A stretch of DNA of 64,000 bases from Amylolactobacillus amylophilus DSM 20533 = JCM 1125. Lineage in GTDB: Bacteria; Bacillota; Bacilli; Lactobacillales; Lactobacillaceae. Below the pieces are notes generated by a model. That model had not been told where the DNA came from. It did no database searches and saw only the letters and a list, made by a program, of their open reading frames with translations. Shown here piece after piece: positions 13,963 to 27,455 of the stretch (the first letter of the stretch is position 1; each line of letters begins with the position of its first letter). Location of the stretch: contig NZ_CP018888.1 in the NCBI RefSeq assembly GCF_001936335.1, forward strand, positions 62,001 to 126,000, written 5' to 3'. A program made the position numbers and the translations under genes.

Positions 13963-15378
13963 GGCTCTATAATTTCTGTAGTGGGTAAATCCACCATGGA
14001 AATTATGGAGCCTTTTTGAGTATATACAAAAAGTCCCATATGACCTATAATGAAAAGTGCTCAAACTATCATTTTAGAAAGACTCATATGGAACAACTAA
14101 ATCTTATCACAAATTTTCTCAGAATTAAAGACAAAAATATCACTATCACTGATGAATATGATATGGGGACTCACTTAGAACTCCACGGTCACTTGGACTA
14201 CACAGCCCCTAAATGCCCAAAATGCAAGGGACAAATGGCTAAGTACGACTACCAGAAAACTTCTAAAATCCCCTACCTAGAAACTGCTGGCTACCCTTTA
14301 CTTATCCGTCTTCGAAAGCGTCGGTTCAAGTGTAAAGATTGCGGAAAAATGGCGGTCGCTGAAACTCCTCTTGTCAAGAAGAACCACCAAATCTCTGTCG
14401 CTGTTAACCAGAAAATCGCACAATTACTCATCGAAAATCAAGCAATGAAACATATTGCACACAGGCTATCAATTTCAACATCGTCAGTTATGAGAAAGCT
14501 CAATGAGTTCAAGTTTGAAACGGATTGGAATACCCTACCTGAGGTGATGAGTTGGGACGAGTATGCCTTCAAGAAGGGGAAAATGAGCTTCATCGCTCAA
14601 GATTTCGACTCCCTAAATGTCATCGCCATTCTCGACGGAAGAACTCAAGCAACCATCCGAAACCACTTTCTACGCTATCCTAGAAAGGTTAGAAATCGGG
14701 TCAAAGTGATTACCATGGATATGTTTAGTCCCTATTATCAACTTGCTAAACAGCTTTTTCCAAATGCAAAAATTGTACTCGATCGCTTTCATATCGTGCA
14801 ACACCTTAGTCGTGCTATGAACCGTGTCCGTATTCAAATTATGAATCAATTCGACAGAAAATCCCAGGAATACCGATCCTTGAAACGTTACTGGAAATTG
14901 ATACAACAAGATAGCCGTAAACTCAGCGATAAACGATTTTATCGACCTATGTTTCGAATGCATTTGACTAACAAGGAAATCCTAGAAAAACTCCTATCCT
15001 ACTCTGATGAACTCAGACAGCACTATGAACTCTATCAATTTCTCTTGTTCCATTTCCAAGAGAAAAACTCAGATCATTTCTTCAGTCTCATCGAACAGGA
15101 AATAGCCACTGTTAATCCTATTTTCCAGACGGTATTTAAGACATTTCTAAAGGATAAGGACAAGGTTTTAAACGCCATGGAATTGCCTTATTCAAACGCC
15201 AAACTGGAAGCTACCAATAATCTCATCAAAGTCATTAAGAGAAATGCCTTTGGTTTCAGGAACTTTGAAAACTTTAAAAAACGGATTTTGATTGCATTGA
15301 ACATAAAGAAAGAGAGGACGAAGTTCGTCCTCTCTAGATGTTAGCTTTTCATCTACCCACTACAGTTGACAAAGAGCC
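13963..15378 (+). mobile_element. ISL3-family insertion sequence (IS1167-like)
   Basis: About 1416 bp. The ends are imperfect inverted repeats of about 27 bp: both begin GGCTCT and share CTGTAGTGGGTA after a variable centre (left 13963-13990, right 15351-15378 inverted). It carries one transposase. The flanks (CAATTTCG on the left, AAAATAAG on the right) are not a target duplication, so the element probably took part in a deletion or recombination after insertion: the left flank is the broken 90-bp repeat and the right flank is the amylase terminator. Confidence 0.88.
14088..15344 (+). CDS. ISL3-family transposase
   Basis: 418 residues from the ATG at 14088 (MEQLNLITNFLRIKD), which matches relatives better than the longer frame from 14016. 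The N-terminal zinc finger is CPKC..CKDC (ISL3 type) with a helix-turn-helix after it. The DDE catalytic residues can be placed at SWDEYAFKKG, VITMDMFSPYY and the late NAKLEATNN. It appears intact, so the element may still be mobile. The closest remembered relatives are streptococcal IS1167/IS1193-type elements. Confidence 0.92.
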   Translation: MEQLNLITNFLRIKDKNITITDEYDMGTHLELHGHLDYTAPKCPKCKGQMAKYDYQKTSKIPYLETAGYPLLIRLRKRRFKCKDCGKMAVAETPLVKKNHQISVAVNQKIAQLLIENQAMKHIAHRLSISTSSVMRKLNEFKFETDWNTLPEVMSWDEYAFKKGKMSFIAQDFDSLNVIAILDGRTQATIRNHFLRYPRKVRNRVKVITMDMFSPYYQLAKQLFPNAKIVLDRFHIVQHLSRAMNRVRIQIMNQFDRKSQEYRSLKRYWKLIQQDSRKLSDKRFYRPMFRMHLTNKEILEKLLSYSDELRQHYELYQFLLFHFQEKNSDHFFSLIEQEIATVNPIFQTVFKTFLKDKDKVLNAMELPYSNAKLEATNNLIKVIKRNAFGFRNFENFKKRILIALNIKKERTKFVLSRC

Positions 15379-19960: not shown

Positions 19961-21256
19961 TTAGTGATCGACTCTCTCAACTTTTCTTTTACTGTAGAAT
20001 GACTTATTAAAGTCTTCTAGATTAGCTAATTTTTCAATTTCTAACCCTATTTCTTTTACCAGATTTACAACAAGCGCATTGCCCATTGCGAAATATCGAT
20101 TAGGTGTTGTAACACCTTCAAGTTTGGTCCAGTTTTTTGGAAATGTATTTATCTTTTCAGCTTCTACAGGTGAAATCAAACGTAGTTTACCATTTCCTGG
20201 ATCCATTATAACATGACTCATTCTCGATACAGTATGCTCAGATGTGACCATAGTTCTAGCTGGCTTATCAAGTGAATCAGGATATGGGATAGCCCCCATT
20301 CCGTATCTATATTCAAATCCAGTTTTTGAAATCTTGGTTGTTCTAAATCCAGCTTTTAGTTCTGTAAATTTAGCCTTTTTTTCAGGAGTTAGATATAGAC
20401 TAATATCTTCATTGTTCGGCTCGATTATTTTTTTAAGAGGCAATGCCTTCTTCAATTTCGGCTCGTAATCAGCCATTACAACCTCACCATCAGTCATAAA
20501 GCCTGTTTTTTTGAAACCCCTTTTGACCAGAAACTTCTGAGAAAATTCAGGTAAAGACTTGTACTGATTCAAATCAACGAATTCGATATTCTGAACACTT
20601 TTATTCCTTAATGTACTCGTTAATGGTGCCATCGTCATTAAGAATTCCTCGACTTCAAGAATACTATCTTTGTTTACCCTATGAACAGTCTTCATAAATT
20701 CTGTATCTTCTCTAAATGCAAATATGAAGGTTCTTCTTCTTCTCTGGGGATGACCATAATCTGCAGCGTTAATCATTTTCCAAGTTGCCCCATAACCCAA
20801 TCCGGCAAGTGTTTTTAGAATCATGCCGAAATCTCGACCAGGTTGAGAGCTTTTTACACCTGGAGAAGCTAATAATCTATCAACATTCTCCAAAAAAATA
20901 AATTGAGGCCATTTTTCTTCTATTACTTCTTTTATATCCCACCAAAGCACACCTTTTTTTCCATAAAGGCCTTCGGCTTTTGTGGATGCAACCGAATAGT
21001 CCTGGCAAGGAAAACCTCCGACAAGTAAATTCATGTCTGGAATTTTAGCTTTCTCAACCTCGGAAATATTTTCGTTTGTCACAAATGTTTTTGGAAATTT
21101 GTGTTTATAAATTTCATATGCAAATTGATTTAATCGCCCAGGTTCATATTGATCAGCCCAAACAACTTCAAACGCATCGCTTGCCCTGCGAAGTCCCAAA
21201 TGAAAGCCACCAACACCAGCGAACATTTCTGCGACTTTTATTTTGGTTTCAGACAT
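19961..21256 (-). CDS. DNA (cytosine-5-)-methyltransferase
   Basis: 431 residues. All core m5C motifs are visible: motif I AEMFAGVGGFHLGL (about 9-22), motif IV GGFPCQDYSVA with catalytic Cys84, motif VI ENVDRLL (123-129), motif VIII QRRRRTF (171-177), the target-recognition region (about 190-345) and motif X RYFAMGNALVV near the C-terminus. It would methylate host DNA at an unknown sequence. It follows the PLD-SNF2 gene by 2 bp, so it is the protective half of a restriction-modification-like system. AT-rich codon use differs from the backbone. Confidence 0.93.
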   Translation of the reverse strand: MSETKIKVAEMFAGVGGFHLGLRRASDAFEVVWADQYEPGRLNQFAYEIYKHKFPKTFVTNENISEVEKAKIPDMNLLVGGFPCQDYSVASTKAEGLYGKKGVLWWDIKEVIEEKWPQFIFLENVDRLLASPGVKSSQPGRDFGMILKTLAGLGYGATWKMINAADYGHPQRRRRTFIFAFREDTEFMKTVHRVNKDSILEVEEFLMTMAPLTSTLRNKSVQNIEFVDLNQYKSLPEFSQKFLVKRGFKKTGFMTDGEVVMADYEPKLKKALPLKKIIEPNNEDISLYLTPEKKAKFTELKAGFRTTKISKTGFEYRYGMGAIPYPDSLDKPARTMVTSEHTVSRMSHVIMDPGNGKLRLISPVEAEKINTFPKNWTKLEGVTTPNRYFAMGNALVVNLVKEIGLEIEKLANLEDFNKSFYSKRKVERVDH

Positions 21257-21258
21257 AT

Positions 21259-23913
21259 CTATTTACTTATTCTCTTTCTCTCTTCGTCAATAATTTTAAT
21301 AGCTTCGTCTATTTCATTATCAGGATATTCTTTAGATAAAGTATTATCATCAATTGCCGAATACATTATATTTTCTTTTTCTTTCAATCTTGCATAAATT
21401 TTCTCGTCGATATAGCCCGGACGGTCGCTAAAAGCATCTTCACCGGCGGTTTGTAAGTAGTAATATCGTGTATATTGATTATCTTTTAAGCCTAATCTGT
21501 GAATACGATCTCTAGACTGGAGCATAAAAGTAAGATTGAAATCATATTCGAAATATACAGCATCGTGAACAGACTGATGTAGCGAAATTGATTCGGCCAA
21601 GGTTTGTGGATTTGATACCAGAACCTGAATATTACCATCACGAAACTCATTTATCAATTCAACTCTTTGGTTTTTATCCGTTTCACCGTGAACAAGGTTC
21701 ACACTAATTCCTTTATCTCTGAGTGAACTGGCAATTTTTTTAATGGTATCAACAAAAATTCCCCAAACCAAAACTTTTTTTCCTTCAGAAACAAGTTTAA
21801 CAACTAAATCAATACCAGCAGCAAATTTAGGTGACATCATGCTAGCTAAATCAAATTTACTATAAGCATTGACAGTATTGTCTCCCAAAAGCTTTGAAAA
21901 TTCTTTCTCAGATACACTACTCATCTGATCCATATCATTAGCATCATCACCGTTATCATATTTCATGAATTCACCATAATTAATCTTCTGAGTGACCAAT
22001 GATGGATTGGTTGAAGCTTGAATTAAGCGAATCAAGATTGCCAGACTGGATTTCTCAGTCTGAAAAATAGATTCAGCGAGATCTCTCTGGCTTTCAGATG
22101 GTTTCACAATTTCAGTGATATCGGGGTCTGCTTCAGGAACCATCAAATCCTTTTTGTTAGTTCTCCAGAAAAATGGATGCAGCGATTCGTTTATCTCTTC
22201 AATCTTTCTTACATTTGGGTTGATTAGCTCATCTGTATCCCACCCAAAAAAAGATTTATATTCATTCGCATAAAGTATGTGTAGAAAGTTATAAATATCT
22301 TTATACGTGTTTGGAATAGGTGTTCCTGTTAATACGTATCTAAATTTTGGTAAATTAGCAATTTCAAGCGCCTTTTCTGCACGTACTCCTGTGGGATTTT
22401 TAATTCTGTGAACTTCGTCAAATACCAACATTGTTTTATCATTAATTAATTTTTTCAGCAAATCAGCGTAACGTGGTAATGATTCATAATTCAACAAAAT
22501 CAAATTGCTGATTCCCCATCTGGTTTTTAGTTGATATTTAAAATCTGGGCTATTCTGAGAATCAATCTCTCTTAGCTCTTTCTTATTCCCAAATACTTCA
22601 TGAAACTCATGTTTCCAACTTTCAAAGGCATTAATTGGCGATACAACTAAAATTCTTTCTAATTTTTCACTTTCAGGTGCACCTATTCTATTGAGGTACG
22701 CAAAAACTCCAAGTACCATTGCAGTTTTCCCTGAACCAGGAACGGAAAAATTTGCTGCTCTAGCCATCTCATACTCATAGTACGCAGCACGTAAATGTAG
22801 TGGGTTTAATGGCCTAGTAACTTCTGACTGAACTACTCGTTTGAATTGCTCAAAAGTACTCTGTTTAGTTTGCGGAAATTTTTCGAATTTGCCTTTATAT
22901 ACTTCGCCAAGTATCTTATATTGCTCAATTGAATATTTATTTCTGGATATAAACTGTTCGACAGCAGAAGATACAATTACGTTTATATCAAGTCTCTGCG
23001 CTCTCTGTTGTGTCACTCGAATAATACGTTCGATATCTTTATAGGTCGTGTTACTTTTAATGGTTTTGTTGTCATCAGCAAAAAAGGGAGTTAAATCACT
23101 TCCCTTTCTCAGTTTTCTATCTGTACTTGTTATCTGGTTCACTGTATTGTCAATACGTACAATTGTATTACCATACAATTGAAACGAAATTGTATTTTCA
23201 GGTATTTCTATCTTTCTGGTGTCCGAAGTAATTTCAAATTCTGGAATCGTTGCTTGGTCCTTATACTTTGCAATCTGTTCGTAGGTCAAATCAGATGCTT
23301 CAAGAACTTCAACTCTATCTTCTGTATTATTCCACAATCGTTCAAATCTCTCAGAAGTCTCTTGATTTCTAGACTGAATGTTTGAGGAACTATCCCAAGA
23401 AAAGTCTACATTGATACTTTCATAGTTACGACTAATACCACTCACGGTTTCGTTCATTGAGCCATTAAAATAGACACTTTCGGTACCAGAAGAAATGATA
23501 CCAAATTTATCATGGAATATACCCTCAGTAGTAAGAGCCACTTTAACCTTAGCCAACCCCACAGCAATCATAAAAGCTAAGTTACCTAATTGTTTTTGTG
23601 TTTCTGGATTAAGTATCTCATTCTGTTCAGATATCTTTAAAGGCTCTAACTCAGTCAATAATGAGTAACCTTTTTTTATTTTTTCAAAATCTTCTTCTGT
23701 TATGTCCTTAGAGATAATAAATTGTGCTTGCCCATGGTTCTTTGCAAGTTGTTCCAGACCATCAATATATAAATCCATACCAGCACTCGTGAAGTATCCA
23801 GAAACACGTCGATAAAGTGTGGCTTCACTCAAAACTGGCTTATAAAAATCCTCTACTATATTTTCAGTGTATTGAGATTTTAGATTGCTTTTTAGTTTAG
23901 CGGAGAAAGTCAT
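21259..23913 (-). CDS. Fused PLD-nuclease-like and SNF2-family helicase (putative ATP-dependent restriction enzyme)
   Basis: 884 residues. Residues 1-170 form a phospholipase-D-like nuclease domain: H134-x-K136 and G151-S-x-N154 are present, but the motif aspartate position holds Ser, so activity is uncertain. From about 365 there is a SWI2/SNF2 helicase: Walker A PGSGKT (392-397), DEVH (499-502), TGTP (529-532), and a helicase C domain with VSNPQTLAESISLHQ and the arginine motif QSRDRIHRLG. PLD plus SF2 ATPase plus m5C methyltransferase recalls the NgoAVII and CglI restriction systems, where the two activities are separate proteins; here they are fused. It overlaps the ParB-like gene by 4 bp (ATGA). 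Confidence 0.88.
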   Translation of the reverse strand: MTFSAKLKSNLKSQYTENIVEDFYKPVLSEATLYRRVSGYFTSAGMDLYIDGLEQLAKNHGQAQFIISKDITEEDFEKIKKGYSLLTELEPLKISEQNEILNPETQKQLGNLAFMIAVGLAKVKVALTTEGIFHDKFGIISSGTESVYFNGSMNETVSGISRNYESINVDFSWDSSSNIQSRNQETSERFERLWNNTEDRVEVLEASDLTYEQIAKYKDQATIPEFEITSDTRKIEIPENTISFQLYGNTIVRIDNTVNQITSTDRKLRKGSDLTPFFADDNKTIKSNTTYKDIERIIRVTQQRAQRLDINVIVSSAVEQFISRNKYSIEQYKILGEVYKGKFEKFPQTKQSTFEQFKRVVQSEVTRPLNPLHLRAAYYEYEMARAANFSVPGSGKTAMVLGVFAYLNRIGAPESEKLERILVVSPINAFESWKHEFHEVFGNKKELREIDSQNSPDFKYQLKTRWGISNLILLNYESLPRYADLLKKLINDKTMLVFDEVHRIKNPTGVRAEKALEIANLPKFRYVLTGTPIPNTYKDIYNFLHILYANEYKSFFGWDTDELINPNVRKIEEINESLHPFFWRTNKKDLMVPEADPDITEIVKPSESQRDLAESIFQTEKSSLAILIRLIQASTNPSLVTQKINYGEFMKYDNGDDANDMDQMSSVSEKEFSKLLGDNTVNAYSKFDLASMMSPKFAAGIDLVVKLVSEGKKVLVWGIFVDTIKKIASSLRDKGISVNLVHGETDKNQRVELINEFRDGNIQVLVSNPQTLAESISLHQSVHDAVYFEYDFNLTFMLQSRDRIHRLGLKDNQYTRYYYLQTAGEDAFSDRPGYIDEKIYARLKEKENIMYSAIDDNTLSKEYPDNEIDEAIKIIDEERKRISK

Positions 23914-25169
23914 TTCATATTCAACTCTTTCTTTAACTTAAATAAAATATCTGTAATATCAGACATAACCTCCTTGGAATCCAGGTTCTCGTCGATGGTC
24001 ATTTCTTTAAAATCATCAACAGAGATATCTTCTAAATTATCTCGAATATCCTCTAATTTAGTTAATGCTTTCTTTCTTTCCGAATCATTTTTGCCTTTAT
24101 ATATTAGCCTATTTGTAGATTGTTTTAGTTTCTCAACCTCCTCATGAATTTCATCGTCTTTATGTAGCACTGTTTGTAAGTCATTAGCCGTAGTAACTGG
24201 ATGTTCTTCAAATTTATCGATAATTGAATCCATCTTATCATCAACAGCTTGAACATAGTGATCTAGCGATTCAGGATTTTTTAGGATATATTTCTTCAGA
24301 TCACGCATATCCCTTGTTGCATCTTTACTATCTTGTTTAGTCTTTAAAACAGCTAAGTGTACCAATACAGCGTCGGTGATTGCTTCCTTTTCATCACTCT
24401 TTAGATTATTAATTGTACTCTCTATTTCTTCCAAAGGACCATCAAGTTTCAAATCTCTGGCCAAGTAAAATTTATCGATTGGATTACCACCTGGAGATAT
24501 TAATCTTATAAACCTGATAACAAGGTTTGCAAGCCTTATGTCTCGATTTATTCCCTTTGTGTTACCAGCACCAGATGCCTTTCTATATTCTTCAACAGTC
24601 ATCAGTTTTTCAACTTCAATAGTATTATATACATCGAAAATTCGATCGATTGGATCATAATTAACCCGTTCTTCTCTACCTAATTGAAGATCCAATTCTA
24701 ATTCTTTGATTTTCTTTTCGTCAGTTTTAGTACTCAAATCTAGAGGCAGTATTATCGCATCAAATTCTTGTGGAAGATTTGTCTCCGTTTGATACATTCT
24801 AAGAGCTGTAAATCTTCTATTTCCATCAATAACTCTTCCATCTGGTAAGACAACTCCAGGCTCTTGCTGCCCTTTTTCTTTTATGGATTGTAATGTATCC
24901 TTTAATGCTTGAATGTTAGATTGATAAATAAATTTCTCAAATATTTTATTATACTGAGAATCTCCAGGTTCAGGAATCAATAATCCATTTTCTGCCTGAA
25001 ATTGTTTGTATGTAGTATTAATACGTCCATTTTGATCATTATAATATAAATATTTTAGCGGTATCGAACACACTTCAAAATTATGATTGACAATTCCAGG
25101 TACTGATAGTTTTTTTATAACACCCGTCTTTTCGAGTTGATTTGCAGCTTTCATTTCCAATAAATCCAT
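23910..25169 (-). CDS. ParB/Srx-fold protein of the restriction-like operon
   Basis: 419 residues. The N-terminal part (about 30-135) resembles the ParB N-terminal/sulfiredoxin fold: IPLKYLYYNDQNGR, then VVLPDGRVIDGNRRFTALR with the DGNRR motif (115-119). The middle is helical; the C-terminal third (about 290-419) is charged and coiled-coil-like. Not a chromosome-partition ParB: there is no ParA partner or parS, and it is the first gene of an operon with a nuclease-helicase and a methyltransferase. It may be a specificity or DNA-loading factor or a nuclease. ATG at 25169, with AAGGGGGA 7-8 nt before it. Confidence 0.78.
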   Translation of the reverse strand: MDLLEMKAANQLEKTGVIKKLSVPGIVNHNFEVCSIPLKYLYYNDQNGRINTTYKQFQAENGLLIPEPGDSQYNKIFEKFIYQSNIQALKDTLQSIKEKGQQEPGVVLPDGRVIDGNRRFTALRMYQTETNLPQEFDAIILPLDLSTKTDEKKIKELELDLQLGREERVNYDPIDRIFDVYNTIEVEKLMTVEEYRKASGAGNTKGINRDIRLANLVIRFIRLISPGGNPIDKFYLARDLKLDGPLEEIESTINNLKSDEKEAITDAVLVHLAVLKTKQDSKDATRDMRDLKKYILKNPESLDHYVQAVDDKMDSIIDKFEEHPVTTANDLQTVLHKDDEIHEEVEKLKQSTNRLIYKGKNDSERKKALTKLEDIRDNLEDISVDDFKEMTIDENLDSKEVMSDITDILFKLKKELNMK

Positions 25170-25209
25170 AGGTAAATCCCCCTTAGCATAATATTACCAT
25201 AATTAAAAT

Positions 25210-25366: not shown

Positions 25367-27139
25367 TTATTTTTTTGATTCAACATTCTTTTTCAGAGCC
25401 GCTCGCAGCTCATCGTCCACTGCATAGATGTACATGCCATTTACACCGCGCGTCAGAAGAACATTCAACTCGTTGTTTAAGAATTTTTCGGCAAAATCTT
25501 TCTTTTCACCGTTTTTCAATGTTCTTCTATTTGTTGCTTTCTTGCTCTTACTTGCTGTCTTATCAGTTATGATTCTGCCATTTCTGTACTTAACTGACGG
25601 ACCAATAATAACCCCCGCATAATTCAGATCTGCACCTTGAATTGTAAAGGTTGACCCAACTTCATTAATTGATTCTGGTATTTCAGCCCAAGCGTACTTC
25701 TTATTTTTCTTAACAGCAGGTAATTGCAGATTCCACGGCATTTTCCAATCACCAATTTCCACATACCAATATGGTTTGGTCTTGTCTTCAGGAGCTTTTG
25801 CATTTTTGTACTCCCAATCAAATGTAGCAATAATCCGTGACAATCCTTTTTTCTCATCACTTGCTTTCTTGCGTATAAGTCTTTCTAACTCTTCAGGCGT
25901 ATCCATAATCTGTAAATCATACTCTTCGTCATACATGAGTTTTCCAATCTCATGATTATCAATAAGATTTCTGATCCAAGCTACAGTAGTTTTATTGGCA
26001 TGGATTCTCTTCTGATTAAGTAGGTGGAACATGTTATTACCTGCATCTTGAATAATGTTATGTACCTCTTCAACTGAACGATATTGTTCTGCAGTAAGTA
26101 CTTGACTTGGGTCATAAACCATAATTACTACTCTGGCTTTTTTTCGAATATCTGCCAGTTGATCCTTACCTTGATAACTCTGTTTACCTTGTGTCCATAA
26201 TAGGTGTGCCTCATCAATTAAAACAACATCTGCTTTTTCAATATCTTTATTGTTGATGAAGCTTGTTGGCTTCATTACAACAGGATGGTTCTTACTATGC
26301 AAACCGAGCTTCGTCATTATTTCGTCATAAACTTTAACCTGTTCATCGTGATTAACAAGTAAGTAGTTGTTCTTATTACCAAATATGACAGATTCTGGGT
26401 CCTTGGCATCCATAGATAAATCATAAAACAGACTGCTCAATAGAACTGTCTTTCCAGTGCCTGCATCCCCACTAATAACAATAAGCTGATTATCTTCATC
26501 CCTTGAGAATATTTCAATTAACTTGAGATAAACTGAATTTTTTAAGTTTGTCTGGTCTTTATCCAGTTTATGGAAAGGTGATGCCTTGAACATCGCTGAA
26601 TCTCGCACAACCTGTTCAATTGGAAATAGAGTTTTATTGATTTCATTTAACTTTAGCCAGATTTCGGAAAATACATTATCTAAAAACTCAGAGGTGTAGT
26701 ATGCTGACTGTTCATTTGTTCGTCTGTTGAATACTTGATTTACATGTTCAATCGCAGACATATATAACATAAGCTTATTTTCTATATCGAGTGTTAGTGA
26801 TTTATTGAAAATCGGATCTCCAATAACAAGCATTTTTGAACTATTTGATTTGGACAATCTATTCCAACGTTGATCTGTTTCGTCTCTAGTATCATTGGTT
26901 AAATGCTCAACTGTTCTTCGTTCAATATTATTGGTTTCACCGATATATACATCATAATTTTTTGATTTTTTATCAGTTGAATTAATGATGTAAACAGTTG
27001 GATACTCAAATAGATACTTATGATTCTTATCCTTAGACTTATGCAAACTTTGTTTTAAAACAGTCAATTTTCTACTATCGTATTCAACTTCCTTTATAAC
27101 TGGTTCGAAATTTAATTTACTCTTGTTTTCTTTATTCAT
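25367..27139 (-). CDS. GIY-YIG nuclease fused to a Schlafen-type helicase (DUF2075)
   Basis: 590 residues. An N-terminal GIY-YIG domain (about 45-150: TVYIIN..DVYIGETNNIERR) is followed by a P-loop helicase of PF09848 type (DUF2075, now called the Schlafen group 3 helicase domain): Walker A GDAGTGKT (224-231), DEAH (309-312) and a late LLTRGVNGMYIYAVDDE motif. It probably cuts and unwinds nucleic acid. Its ATG lies inside the end of the MazG-like gene (8-bp overlap), so the two act together. I recall this pair recurring in bacterial genomes and suspected of antiviral defence. AT-rich relative to the backbone. Confidence 0.87.
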   Translation of the reverse strand: MNKENKSKLNFEPVIKEVEYDSRKLTVLKQSLHKSKDKNHKYLFEYPTVYIINSTDKKSKNYDVYIGETNNIERRTVEHLTNDTRDETDQRWNRLSKSNSSKMLVIGDPIFNKSLTLDIENKLMLYMSAIEHVNQVFNRRTNEQSAYYTSEFLDNVFSEIWLKLNEINKTLFPIEQVVRDSAMFKASPFHKLDKDQTNLKNSVYLKLIEIFSRDEDNQLIVISGDAGTGKTVLLSSLFYDLSMDAKDPESVIFGNKNNYLLVNHDEQVKVYDEIMTKLGLHSKNHPVVMKPTSFINNKDIEKADVVLIDEAHLLWTQGKQSYQGKDQLADIRKKARVVIMVYDPSQVLTAEQYRSVEEVHNIIQDAGNNMFHLLNQKRIHANKTTVAWIRNLIDNHEIGKLMYDEEYDLQIMDTPEELERLIRKKASDEKKGLSRIIATFDWEYKNAKAPEDKTKPYWYVEIGDWKMPWNLQLPAVKKNKKYAWAEIPESINEVGSTFTIQGADLNYAGVIIGPSVKYRNGRIITDKTASKSKKATNRRTLKNGEKKDFAEKFLNNELNVLLTRGVNGMYIYAVDDELRAALKKNVESKK

Positions 27140-27455
27140 CTTGTTTTTCCGGCTCAGAAAATTTCCATTTGCGATTCTTATTCATATTTAGTTTCTTCTC
27201 AACTAAATCCATTGGATTAACGCCAAGCTTCTCACACATATAGAATGTGTAAGTTAAAACGTCAGCGAGCTCCATCTCAAGGCTATCTTTCTTATTGTCA
27301 GATTCAGTTGGATCTTCACTCCATTGAAAATGTTCTAACACTTCACTAGCTTCAATGTTCAATGAGATAGCAAGACTCTTTAAATTATGATATTTTTGCC
27401 AGTTTCGACTATTTCTAAATTCAATTAAATCCAAAATCACCTTTTCATAATCCAT
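27132..27455 (-). CDS. MazG-like nucleotide pyrophosphohydrolase
   Basis: 107 residues of the all-alpha NTP pyrophosphatase fold. Metal-binding acidic residues are visible in SLNIEASEVLEHFQW and in MELADVLTYTFYM (E-x-x-E / E-x-x-D pattern). It would hydrolyse (d)NTPs or modified nucleotides to monophosphates. It is first of a two-gene operon with the GIY-YIG/Schlafen helicase and overlaps it by 8 bp; nucleotide-depleting enzymes beside nucleases suggest phage defence. Confidence 0.85.
   Translation of the reverse strand: MDYEKVILDLIEFRNSRNWQKYHNLKSLAISLNIEASEVLEHFQWSEDPTESDNKKDSLEMELADVLTYTFYMCEKLGVNPMDLVEKKLNMNKNRKWKFSEPEKQDE

Follow-up and report, generated by a model that had tools for sequence, protein, structure and literature searches.

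The three-gene operon described here lies in a 64,000-nt window of the genome of Amylolactobacillus amylophilus DSM 20533 = JCM 1125 (NZ_CP018888.1 positions 62,001-126,000; GCF_001936335.1), and encodes a ParB-like protein, a protein joining a PLD nuclease-like domain to an SNF2 ATPase, and a C5-cytosine (m5C) DNA methyltransferase. Comparison with related loci shows that the natural unit is not the set of three genes but an inseparable pair of ParB-like and SNF2 genes, whose partners, the PLD nuclease and the methyltransferase, can be exchanged; this was the main point missed by the initial annotation of the sequence. We think it reasonably likely that the locus is a variant of an ATP-dependent restriction-modification-type defence family built on this pair; the three genes probably form a DNA-cutting defence against foreign DNA. 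All coordinates without a locus prefix are those of the window, and the principal features are as follows.

23910..25169, minus strand: ParB-like protein, 419 amino acids (aa), with a Srx/ParB-fold N-domain (aa ~30-165), a ParB-type middle helical domain (to ~aa 300) and a long helical C-terminus
24675..25082, minus strand: ParB N-domain with nucleotide-pocket-like motifs NxxNxR (ParB NxxQxR), DGNRR (ParB GERR), and E-x-x-x-Q then YDPID (ParB ENxQRxDLxPxE)
21259..23913, minus strand: PLD-SNF2 protein, 884 aa, putative translocating restriction subunit (Pfam; AlphaFold2 model, pLDDT 85)
23296..23913, minus strand: N-terminal PLD nuclease-like domain, aa 1-206, with a single HKD-type motif (PF13091, E=4e-8; PADLOC PbeA, E=3e-65)
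23446..23514, minus strand: PLD active-site motif, aa 134-156, H134-D-K136-F-G-I-I-S141-S142 ... G151-S152-M-N154-E155-T156, with Ser141-Ser142 where other PLDs have D/E
21334..22854, minus strand: SNF2 ATPase core, aa 354-860, with motifs I PGSGKT (392-397), II DEVH (499-502), III LTGTP and VI QSRDRIHRLG
19961..21256, minus strand: C5-cytosine DNA methyltransferase, 431 aa (PF00145, E=2.5e-58; PADLOC MTase_II, E=3e-130)
20264..20704, minus strand: hypervariable target-recognition region of the methyltransferase (aa 185-331), differing between systems that are alike in other respects

The genes are transcribed in the order ParB-like (25169-23910), PLD-SNF2 (23913-21259) and methyltransferase (21256-19961), and all three open reading frames are intact and open throughout. 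The first two overlap by 4 bp (23910-23913) and the second and third are separated by 2 bp (21257-21258), so that the compact operon described in the initial annotation stands, as do its identifications of the m5C methyltransferase and of the PLD-like and SNF2 parts of the 884-residue protein.

A genome scan with an alignment of the helicase recovered 79 loci, to which plasmids and sampled genomes added more. In 97 of the 98 loci that include upstream sequence, a ParB-like gene directly precedes SNF2 (gene calling gave 94 of these and tblastn two, L095 and L096; the last is L059, in which SNF2 is split by a frame break), the sole exception being a 230-aa SNF2 fragment. Pairwise distances between SNF2 proteins correlate with those between their ParB partners (rho 0.62, n=78), exceeding all of 500 permutations (maximum 0.10), and strongly with those of type III Res proteins where the two co-occur (rho 0.94, n=16); the correlation with methyltransferase distances is weak (rho 0.18, n=27), with permutations reaching 0.26. 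The 79 loci span Bacillota, Actinomycetota, Spirochaetota, Mycoplasmatota, Melainabacteria and one contig labelled archaeal. This last (L021), from a metagenome-assembled genome assigned to the Methanofastidiosia, carries a ParB-PLD-SNF2 arrangement 55% identical to the window protein, and may be either a recent transfer or a mis-binned contig.

A search of other genomes for the three-gene order, as the initial annotation had proposed, found it in L002 (identical to L020), L003, L019, L027 and L029, with a truncated methyltransferase in L010; because the same order recurs across Lactobacillaceae, Filifactoraceae and Veillonellaceae, the arrangement is not due to chance. Elsewhere the partners are different. 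Streptococcal relatives (L022, L023) have a different m5C methyltransferase, placed upstream, and PLD-SNF2 is accompanied by Sau3AI/MutH-type enzymes together with an m5C methyltransferase in L018, L037, L079 and L107. Four further loci have stand-alone proteins of about 240 aa from the Sau3AI C-terminal-domain family beside ParB-PLD-SNF2, mostly with an m5C methyltransferase as well; in L013 the match to the Sau3AI model is confined to its C-terminal half, and these proteins may represent a recognition domain that has become detached. About 44 loci, some with PLD and some lacking it, have upstream of ParB a protein of 640-1230 aa with a sigma-r4-like helix-turn-helix and, in some, RNA-polymerase-alpha-C-terminal-domain repeats; no other known domain was found in it, and it is possibly the recognition subunit of its variants.

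L013:8104-8847, L025:2264-2974, L062:1726-2388, L065:1691-2386: stand-alone Sau3AI C-terminal-domain proteins
L031:6341-8743, L081:5914-8643, L016:2106-4688 and about 40 more: large helix-turn-helix proteins

More distant forms combine an m5C methyltransferase, ParB, a PLD-less SNF2 and a NOV_C (PF13020) protein, with either a DpnII-like gene (L108) or a Vsr gene (L109), and the actinobacterial form has a GIY/ResIII protein (L091-L095).

The exchange is clearest for type III systems. Lactobacilli, enterococci, lactococci and Mammaliicoccus have loci in which type III Mod-Res accompanies ParB and an SNF2 that lacks PLD (L014, L039-L058, L075, L111, L134). Allowing for the shortness of some loci, type III Res lies within 9 kb at 18 of 43 PLD-less loci against one of 56 PLD loci, whereas an m5C methyltransferase is near 34 of the 56 PLD loci and none of the 43 others. 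The lone PLD locus with Res nearby (L078) has it three genes away, and where SNF2 is clearly linked to type III Mod-Res, PLD is absent in every case. In the SNF2 tree a single 39-row clade (100%) unites the window's clade (14 rows, 99%) with the PLD-less clade of type III loci (23 rows, 99%); type III loci such as L014, L040, L045 and L134 thus represent the closest sister clade of the window's SNF2 core and share its ParB-SNF2 overlap layout exactly, but take both nuclease and methyltransferase from the type III system. This pattern suggests nuclease exchange, in which PLD is absent where a type III system is linked and is dispensable where the type III Res cuts.

Type III enzymes do not depend on the pair. 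ParB-SNF2 is missing from plasmid systems in which Res shares 56% (Salmonella) or 42-43% (Leuconostoc, L. cremoris) identity with its Enterococcus counterpart, the Salmonella example being a linear plasmid record (L135, CP082688.1) with type III Mod-Res, while lactobacillal type III systems with a Res 51% identical to that of Enterococcus do have it. ParB-SNF2 is therefore optional for type III enzymes, which supports the view that it is portable. In its full form, which we put forward tentatively, this view holds that a ParB-clamp/SNF2-motor module is plugged into different restriction systems (type II-like m5C, Sau3AI-type, type III and NOV_C/DpnII-like), giving them a shared clamp-loading and translocation step and carrying its own PLD mainly where the partner has no ATP-dependent nuclease.

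The same attachment of the pair to a complete and self-sufficient Mod-Res, which related plasmid systems do without, would also be expected if ParB-SNF2 were an accessory remodelling module that strips or moves proteins (anti-restriction proteins, for example) on incoming DNA so that the partner restriction-modification system can act, with PLD adding a nuclease in the window form; eukaryotic SNF2 proteins are, after all, nucleosome remodellers. However, the window operon contains no other nuclease and no MutH or Sau3AI was found in the genome, and the pair must therefore itself supply the cutting here. We regard the remodelling explanation as unlikely, although it is the best of the alternatives to a restriction system that cuts by means of its own PLD domain.

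The assignment of the 419-aa protein to the ParB superfamily came from structure. A sequence search of the PDB with its profile gave coiled-coil matches only, and homology at the sequence level is weak (TIGR00180, E=0.003; a weak match to ddrB-ParB, PF18763, in 30 of 60 relatives). An AlphaFold2 model built from a 60-sequence alignment (pLDDT 91.7) has VIA structure matches to KorB (Z 10.5, root-mean-square deviation 4.1, 199 residues), Myxococcus xanthus ParB-CDP (Z 10.3), Bacillus subtilis ParB-CDP (Z 10.2, root-mean-square deviation 1.7, 93 residues) and Noc (Z 10.1). Both elements characteristic of the superfamily, the Srx/ParB fold and the middle helical DNA-binding domain, are included, with 199 residues aligned to KorB and Noc over aa 27-304. 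The model thus confirms the genuine ParB fold predicted in the initial annotation, and extends the match through the middle DNA-binding domain. Residues N44, N47, R49, G116-N-R-R119, E158 and Q162 are invariant in 60 homologues and coincide with the nucleotide motifs of ParB, which are altered here (GNRR in place of GERR); hhalign against a lactobacillal ParB places GNRR on GERR and ELDLQ on ENLQ, at a low probability of 12%. On these sequence grounds CTP binding is possible.

One ParB relative was found outside the ParB-SNF2 pair: at L106:7346-9463 a ParB-like domain of the same family is fused to a Swt1-type HEPN domain in a 705-aa protein, with two m5C methyltransferases but no SNF2 nearby. 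In four Exiguobacterium loci (L012, L034, L050, L074) two ParA-type genes and two small proteins are directly upstream of the ParB-PLD-SNF2 operon.

The methyltransferase has intact catalytic motifs (PCQ, ENV, QRRRR, GNA), and comparison of six three-gene systems indicates where target specificity is likely to reside. Its recognition region (aa 181-300) is only 21-47% identical between systems, against 74-82% for the flanks, whereas the putative DNA-binding domain of ParB (aa 181-240) is 59-65% conserved. Neither ParB nor PLD-SNF2 has a recognition-like hypervariable block across these systems, the least conserved segments being ParB aa 331-390 (34-41%) and the PLD-SNF2 linker or insert segments 211-270 and 661-690. 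Target variation thus appears to lie in the methyltransferase, and ParB is an unlikely source of specificity, contrary to one of the roles proposed for it in the initial annotation. A stronger form of that proposal, in which the ParB-like protein is a sequence-specific DNA reader that directs the PLD-SNF2 enzyme, draws on the ability of ParB proteins to recognise specific sites (parS, operators) by means of their middle domain, a domain that the model also contains; it is disfavoured because this domain is conserved while the methyltransferase recognition regions have diverged, and the same ParB family accompanies different methyltransferases, type III enzymes and Sau3AI domains. We consider it improbable.

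The window methyltransferase groups in one clade (100/97) with the six others whose genes directly follow SNF2, and this clade is nested within the methyltransferases that accompany Sau3AI-type enzymes. This position hints at a Sau3AI-like GATC specificity, although the recognition region is only 22-30% identical to those of the Sau3AI-associated enzymes. The genome, a single contig of 1.61 Mb, has one other m5C methyltransferase.

Pfam assigns PLDc_2 (PF13091, E=4e-8) to aa 50-194 of the 884-aa protein, SNF2 (E=2e-21) to aa 392-610 and Helicase_C to aa 703-808. The SNF2 motifs are intact and the modelled SNF2 half matches INO80/ISWI at Z 28. All VIA rows for this model align the SNF2 part, and support for the PLD fold comes from sequence profiles: the PADLOC PbeA match (E=3e-65) has its best stretch at aa 6-225 only, the helicase part matching several other families, and the profile of the PLD domain weakly matches MitoPLD and NucT. 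The HxK ... GSxN residues of the HKD/PLD family are all present, with H134, K136, G151, S152, N154 and T156 invariant, and E155 nearly so, in 33 relatives. The initial annotation correctly noted serine (aa 141-142) in place of the HKD aspartate and held that this needed explaining. No special explanation is required, because the classical Asp position (H+7) is variously E, S, C, T or another residue among relatives and SauUSI, an active PLD-SF2 nuclease with HxKx4E, has Glu there (PMC7913695); on the same grounds we reject the idea that a missing HKD Asp denotes a dead nuclease. At H+8 the usual residue is D, whereas S predominates in the clade of the window. The simplest reading of the association between PLD and its partners is that the PLD domain is the nuclease of the window system.

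How the locus may work can be outlined on this basis. The methyltransferase would mark host DNA, and the ParB-like protein would probably serve the SNF2 motor as a DNA clamp or loader that depends on a nucleotide, while the motor would translocate along unmodified DNA. The N-terminal PLD domains, paired as dimers, would cut once translocation is halted or one complex runs into another, as in SauUSI or CglI. The target would most likely be chosen by the methyltransferase recognition region or through sensing of the methylation mark, and not by ParB. In sister systems that lack PLD, ParB-SNF2 would be joined to a different nuclease, supplied by type III Res or by a separate NOV_C-type protein; Sau3AI-type enzymes are found next to forms that carry PLD.

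Several observations weigh against this interpretation. The presence of PLD changes at least seven times on the SNF2 tree and the loci are related, so that its association with particular partners amounts to few independent events; the ParB similarity is weak in sequence, with nucleotide motifs that are altered and aligned at low probability; the PLD profile matches solved PLD nucleases weakly (E 0.01); and PbeABCD, in which PbeA has the same PLD and SF2 layout, stopped a virus although no cleavage of DNA was detected (PMC6459918). The last point, together with PbeA being the best PADLOC match of the PLD part, raises the alternative of a non-cleaving or abortive defence resembling DndCDEA-PbeABCD, which would sense absent modification and block replication of an invader whose DNA is left intact. 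We think this improbable, since no variation is seen in the catalytic residues of PLD, the domain is missing exactly where a type III nuclease occurs, and PbeA has been argued to cleave after all (PMC10853773). Type IV-like, modification-dependent cleavage with the methyltransferase gene as an unrelated neighbour has in its favour the identical PLD-SF2 order of SauUSI (PMC7913695), but is very improbable, since neither domain scans nor the model reveal an SRA or target-recognition domain in the 884-residue chain, the methyltransferase gene is a conserved member of the operon, and a nuclease dependent on m5C would attack the host if encoded next to an active m5C methyltransferase.

The restriction-modification reading must also be set against systems already described. 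An HKD/PLD domain joined to an SF2/SNF2 motor is known from SauUSI (PMC7913695), PbeA (PMC6459918, PMC10853773), type-2 BREX-related helicases (PMC12839542) and orf33 of Lactococcus lactis pLd8 (PMC6098607), and the suggestion in the initial annotation that translocation and cleavage on one chain define a new restriction type does not survive these precedents. SauUSI, a type IV enzyme that dimerises via its PLD domains, shares the single PLD-ATPase chain and the non-conserved HKD Asp, but has its own SRA recognition domain, cuts methylated DNA, and has neither a ParB partner nor a cognate methyltransferase (PMC7913695). The PbeABCD and CxC-ABC systems are modification-linked and their PbeA is an HKD endoDNase fused to an SF2 helicase, with solitary forms pairing with methyltransferases; they differ in requiring the CxC ABC ATPase PbeC, the DndE-like PbeD and PbeB, and no ParB-like gene has been reported paired with PbeA (PMC6459918, PMC10853773). 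Among the relatives of the window locus, L105 has an SMC-like ABC protein downstream. Type-2 BREX-related systems have an HKD nuclease N-terminal to a Swi2/Snf2 helicase, beside a methyltransferase, and exchange nucleases between subtypes, but they have a DUF499 ATPase, an N6-adenine methyltransferase and DUF3780, and no ParB (PMC12839542). CglI and NgoAVII, which translocate in an NTP-driven manner, also encode an m5C methyltransferase with a PLD nuclease and an SF2 ATPase, but in them PLD is joined to a B3 recognition domain on a chain apart from the ATPase, and ParB is absent (PMC4267653, PMC5737866).

The five proteins of the island formed by the operon and two upstream genes include no PbeB, PbeC or PbeD, no match to DUF499, an N6-adenine methyltransferase or DUF3780, and no match to the DISARM core proteins DrmA and DrmB, similarity to DrmD-type helicases being weak; B3 is likewise unmatched in the window system, in which PLD and SNF2 are on one chain. 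We therefore reject membership in DISARM, PbeABCD, type-2 BREX-related and CglI systems, whose defining partners are absent among these five proteins, and this supports the earlier view of an ATP-dependent, restriction-modification-like arrangement distinct from DISARM and CglI/NgoAVII. No description of a ParB-like gene paired with SNF2 in restriction loci was found in the literature searched, which was open-access, with subscription papers and preprints largely outside it.

GC content is 0.32-0.37 over the three genes and the two upstream of them, compared with 0.43-0.46 in tsf, rpsB and a GNAT gene, and therefore points to a horizontally acquired island. The upstream genes, 197 bp away, encode a GIY-YIG/Schlafen-group-3 (SLFN-g3) helicase and a MazG-like protein, and the same order recurs on an L. 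plantarum plasmid (L139) amid other defence-like genes. We rejected them as members of the system, for they are not kept beside the ParB-SNF2 pair (a SLFN homologue at L056 being the sole exception); since they are both set apart and not conserved beside the three genes, they are probably a separate defence cassette. Promoter and terminator scans at the locus gave scores no better than those of shuffled sequence.

25178..25184, minus strand: AAGGGGG ribosome-binding-like site, 8 bases ahead of the ParB-like ATG (from sequence)
25367-27455, minus strand: GIY-YIG and Schlafen-group-3 (DUF2075) helicase, 590 aa, overlapping a 107-aa MazG-like pyrophosphohydrolase
14016-15344, plus strand: ISL3-family transposase at the margin of the island region, adjoining a low-GC alpha-amylase-like gene

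The known role of ParB clamps is in the segregation of chromosomes and plasmids. If the proposal is correct, the portable ParB-SNF2 module would constitute a restriction module of a new class, and we know of no earlier case in which a ParB clamp serves DNA restriction. That ParB is genetically locked to an SNF2 motor in several kinds of restriction system suggests a shared and separable clamp/motor part, much as chromatin remodellers share motors, and raises the question of whether the presence of ParB-SNF2 alters restriction by an otherwise complete type III system. The pair also explains many genes on lactobacillal and enterococcal plasmids that are labelled 'partition protein', 'DEAD/DEAH helicase' or 'hypothetical'.

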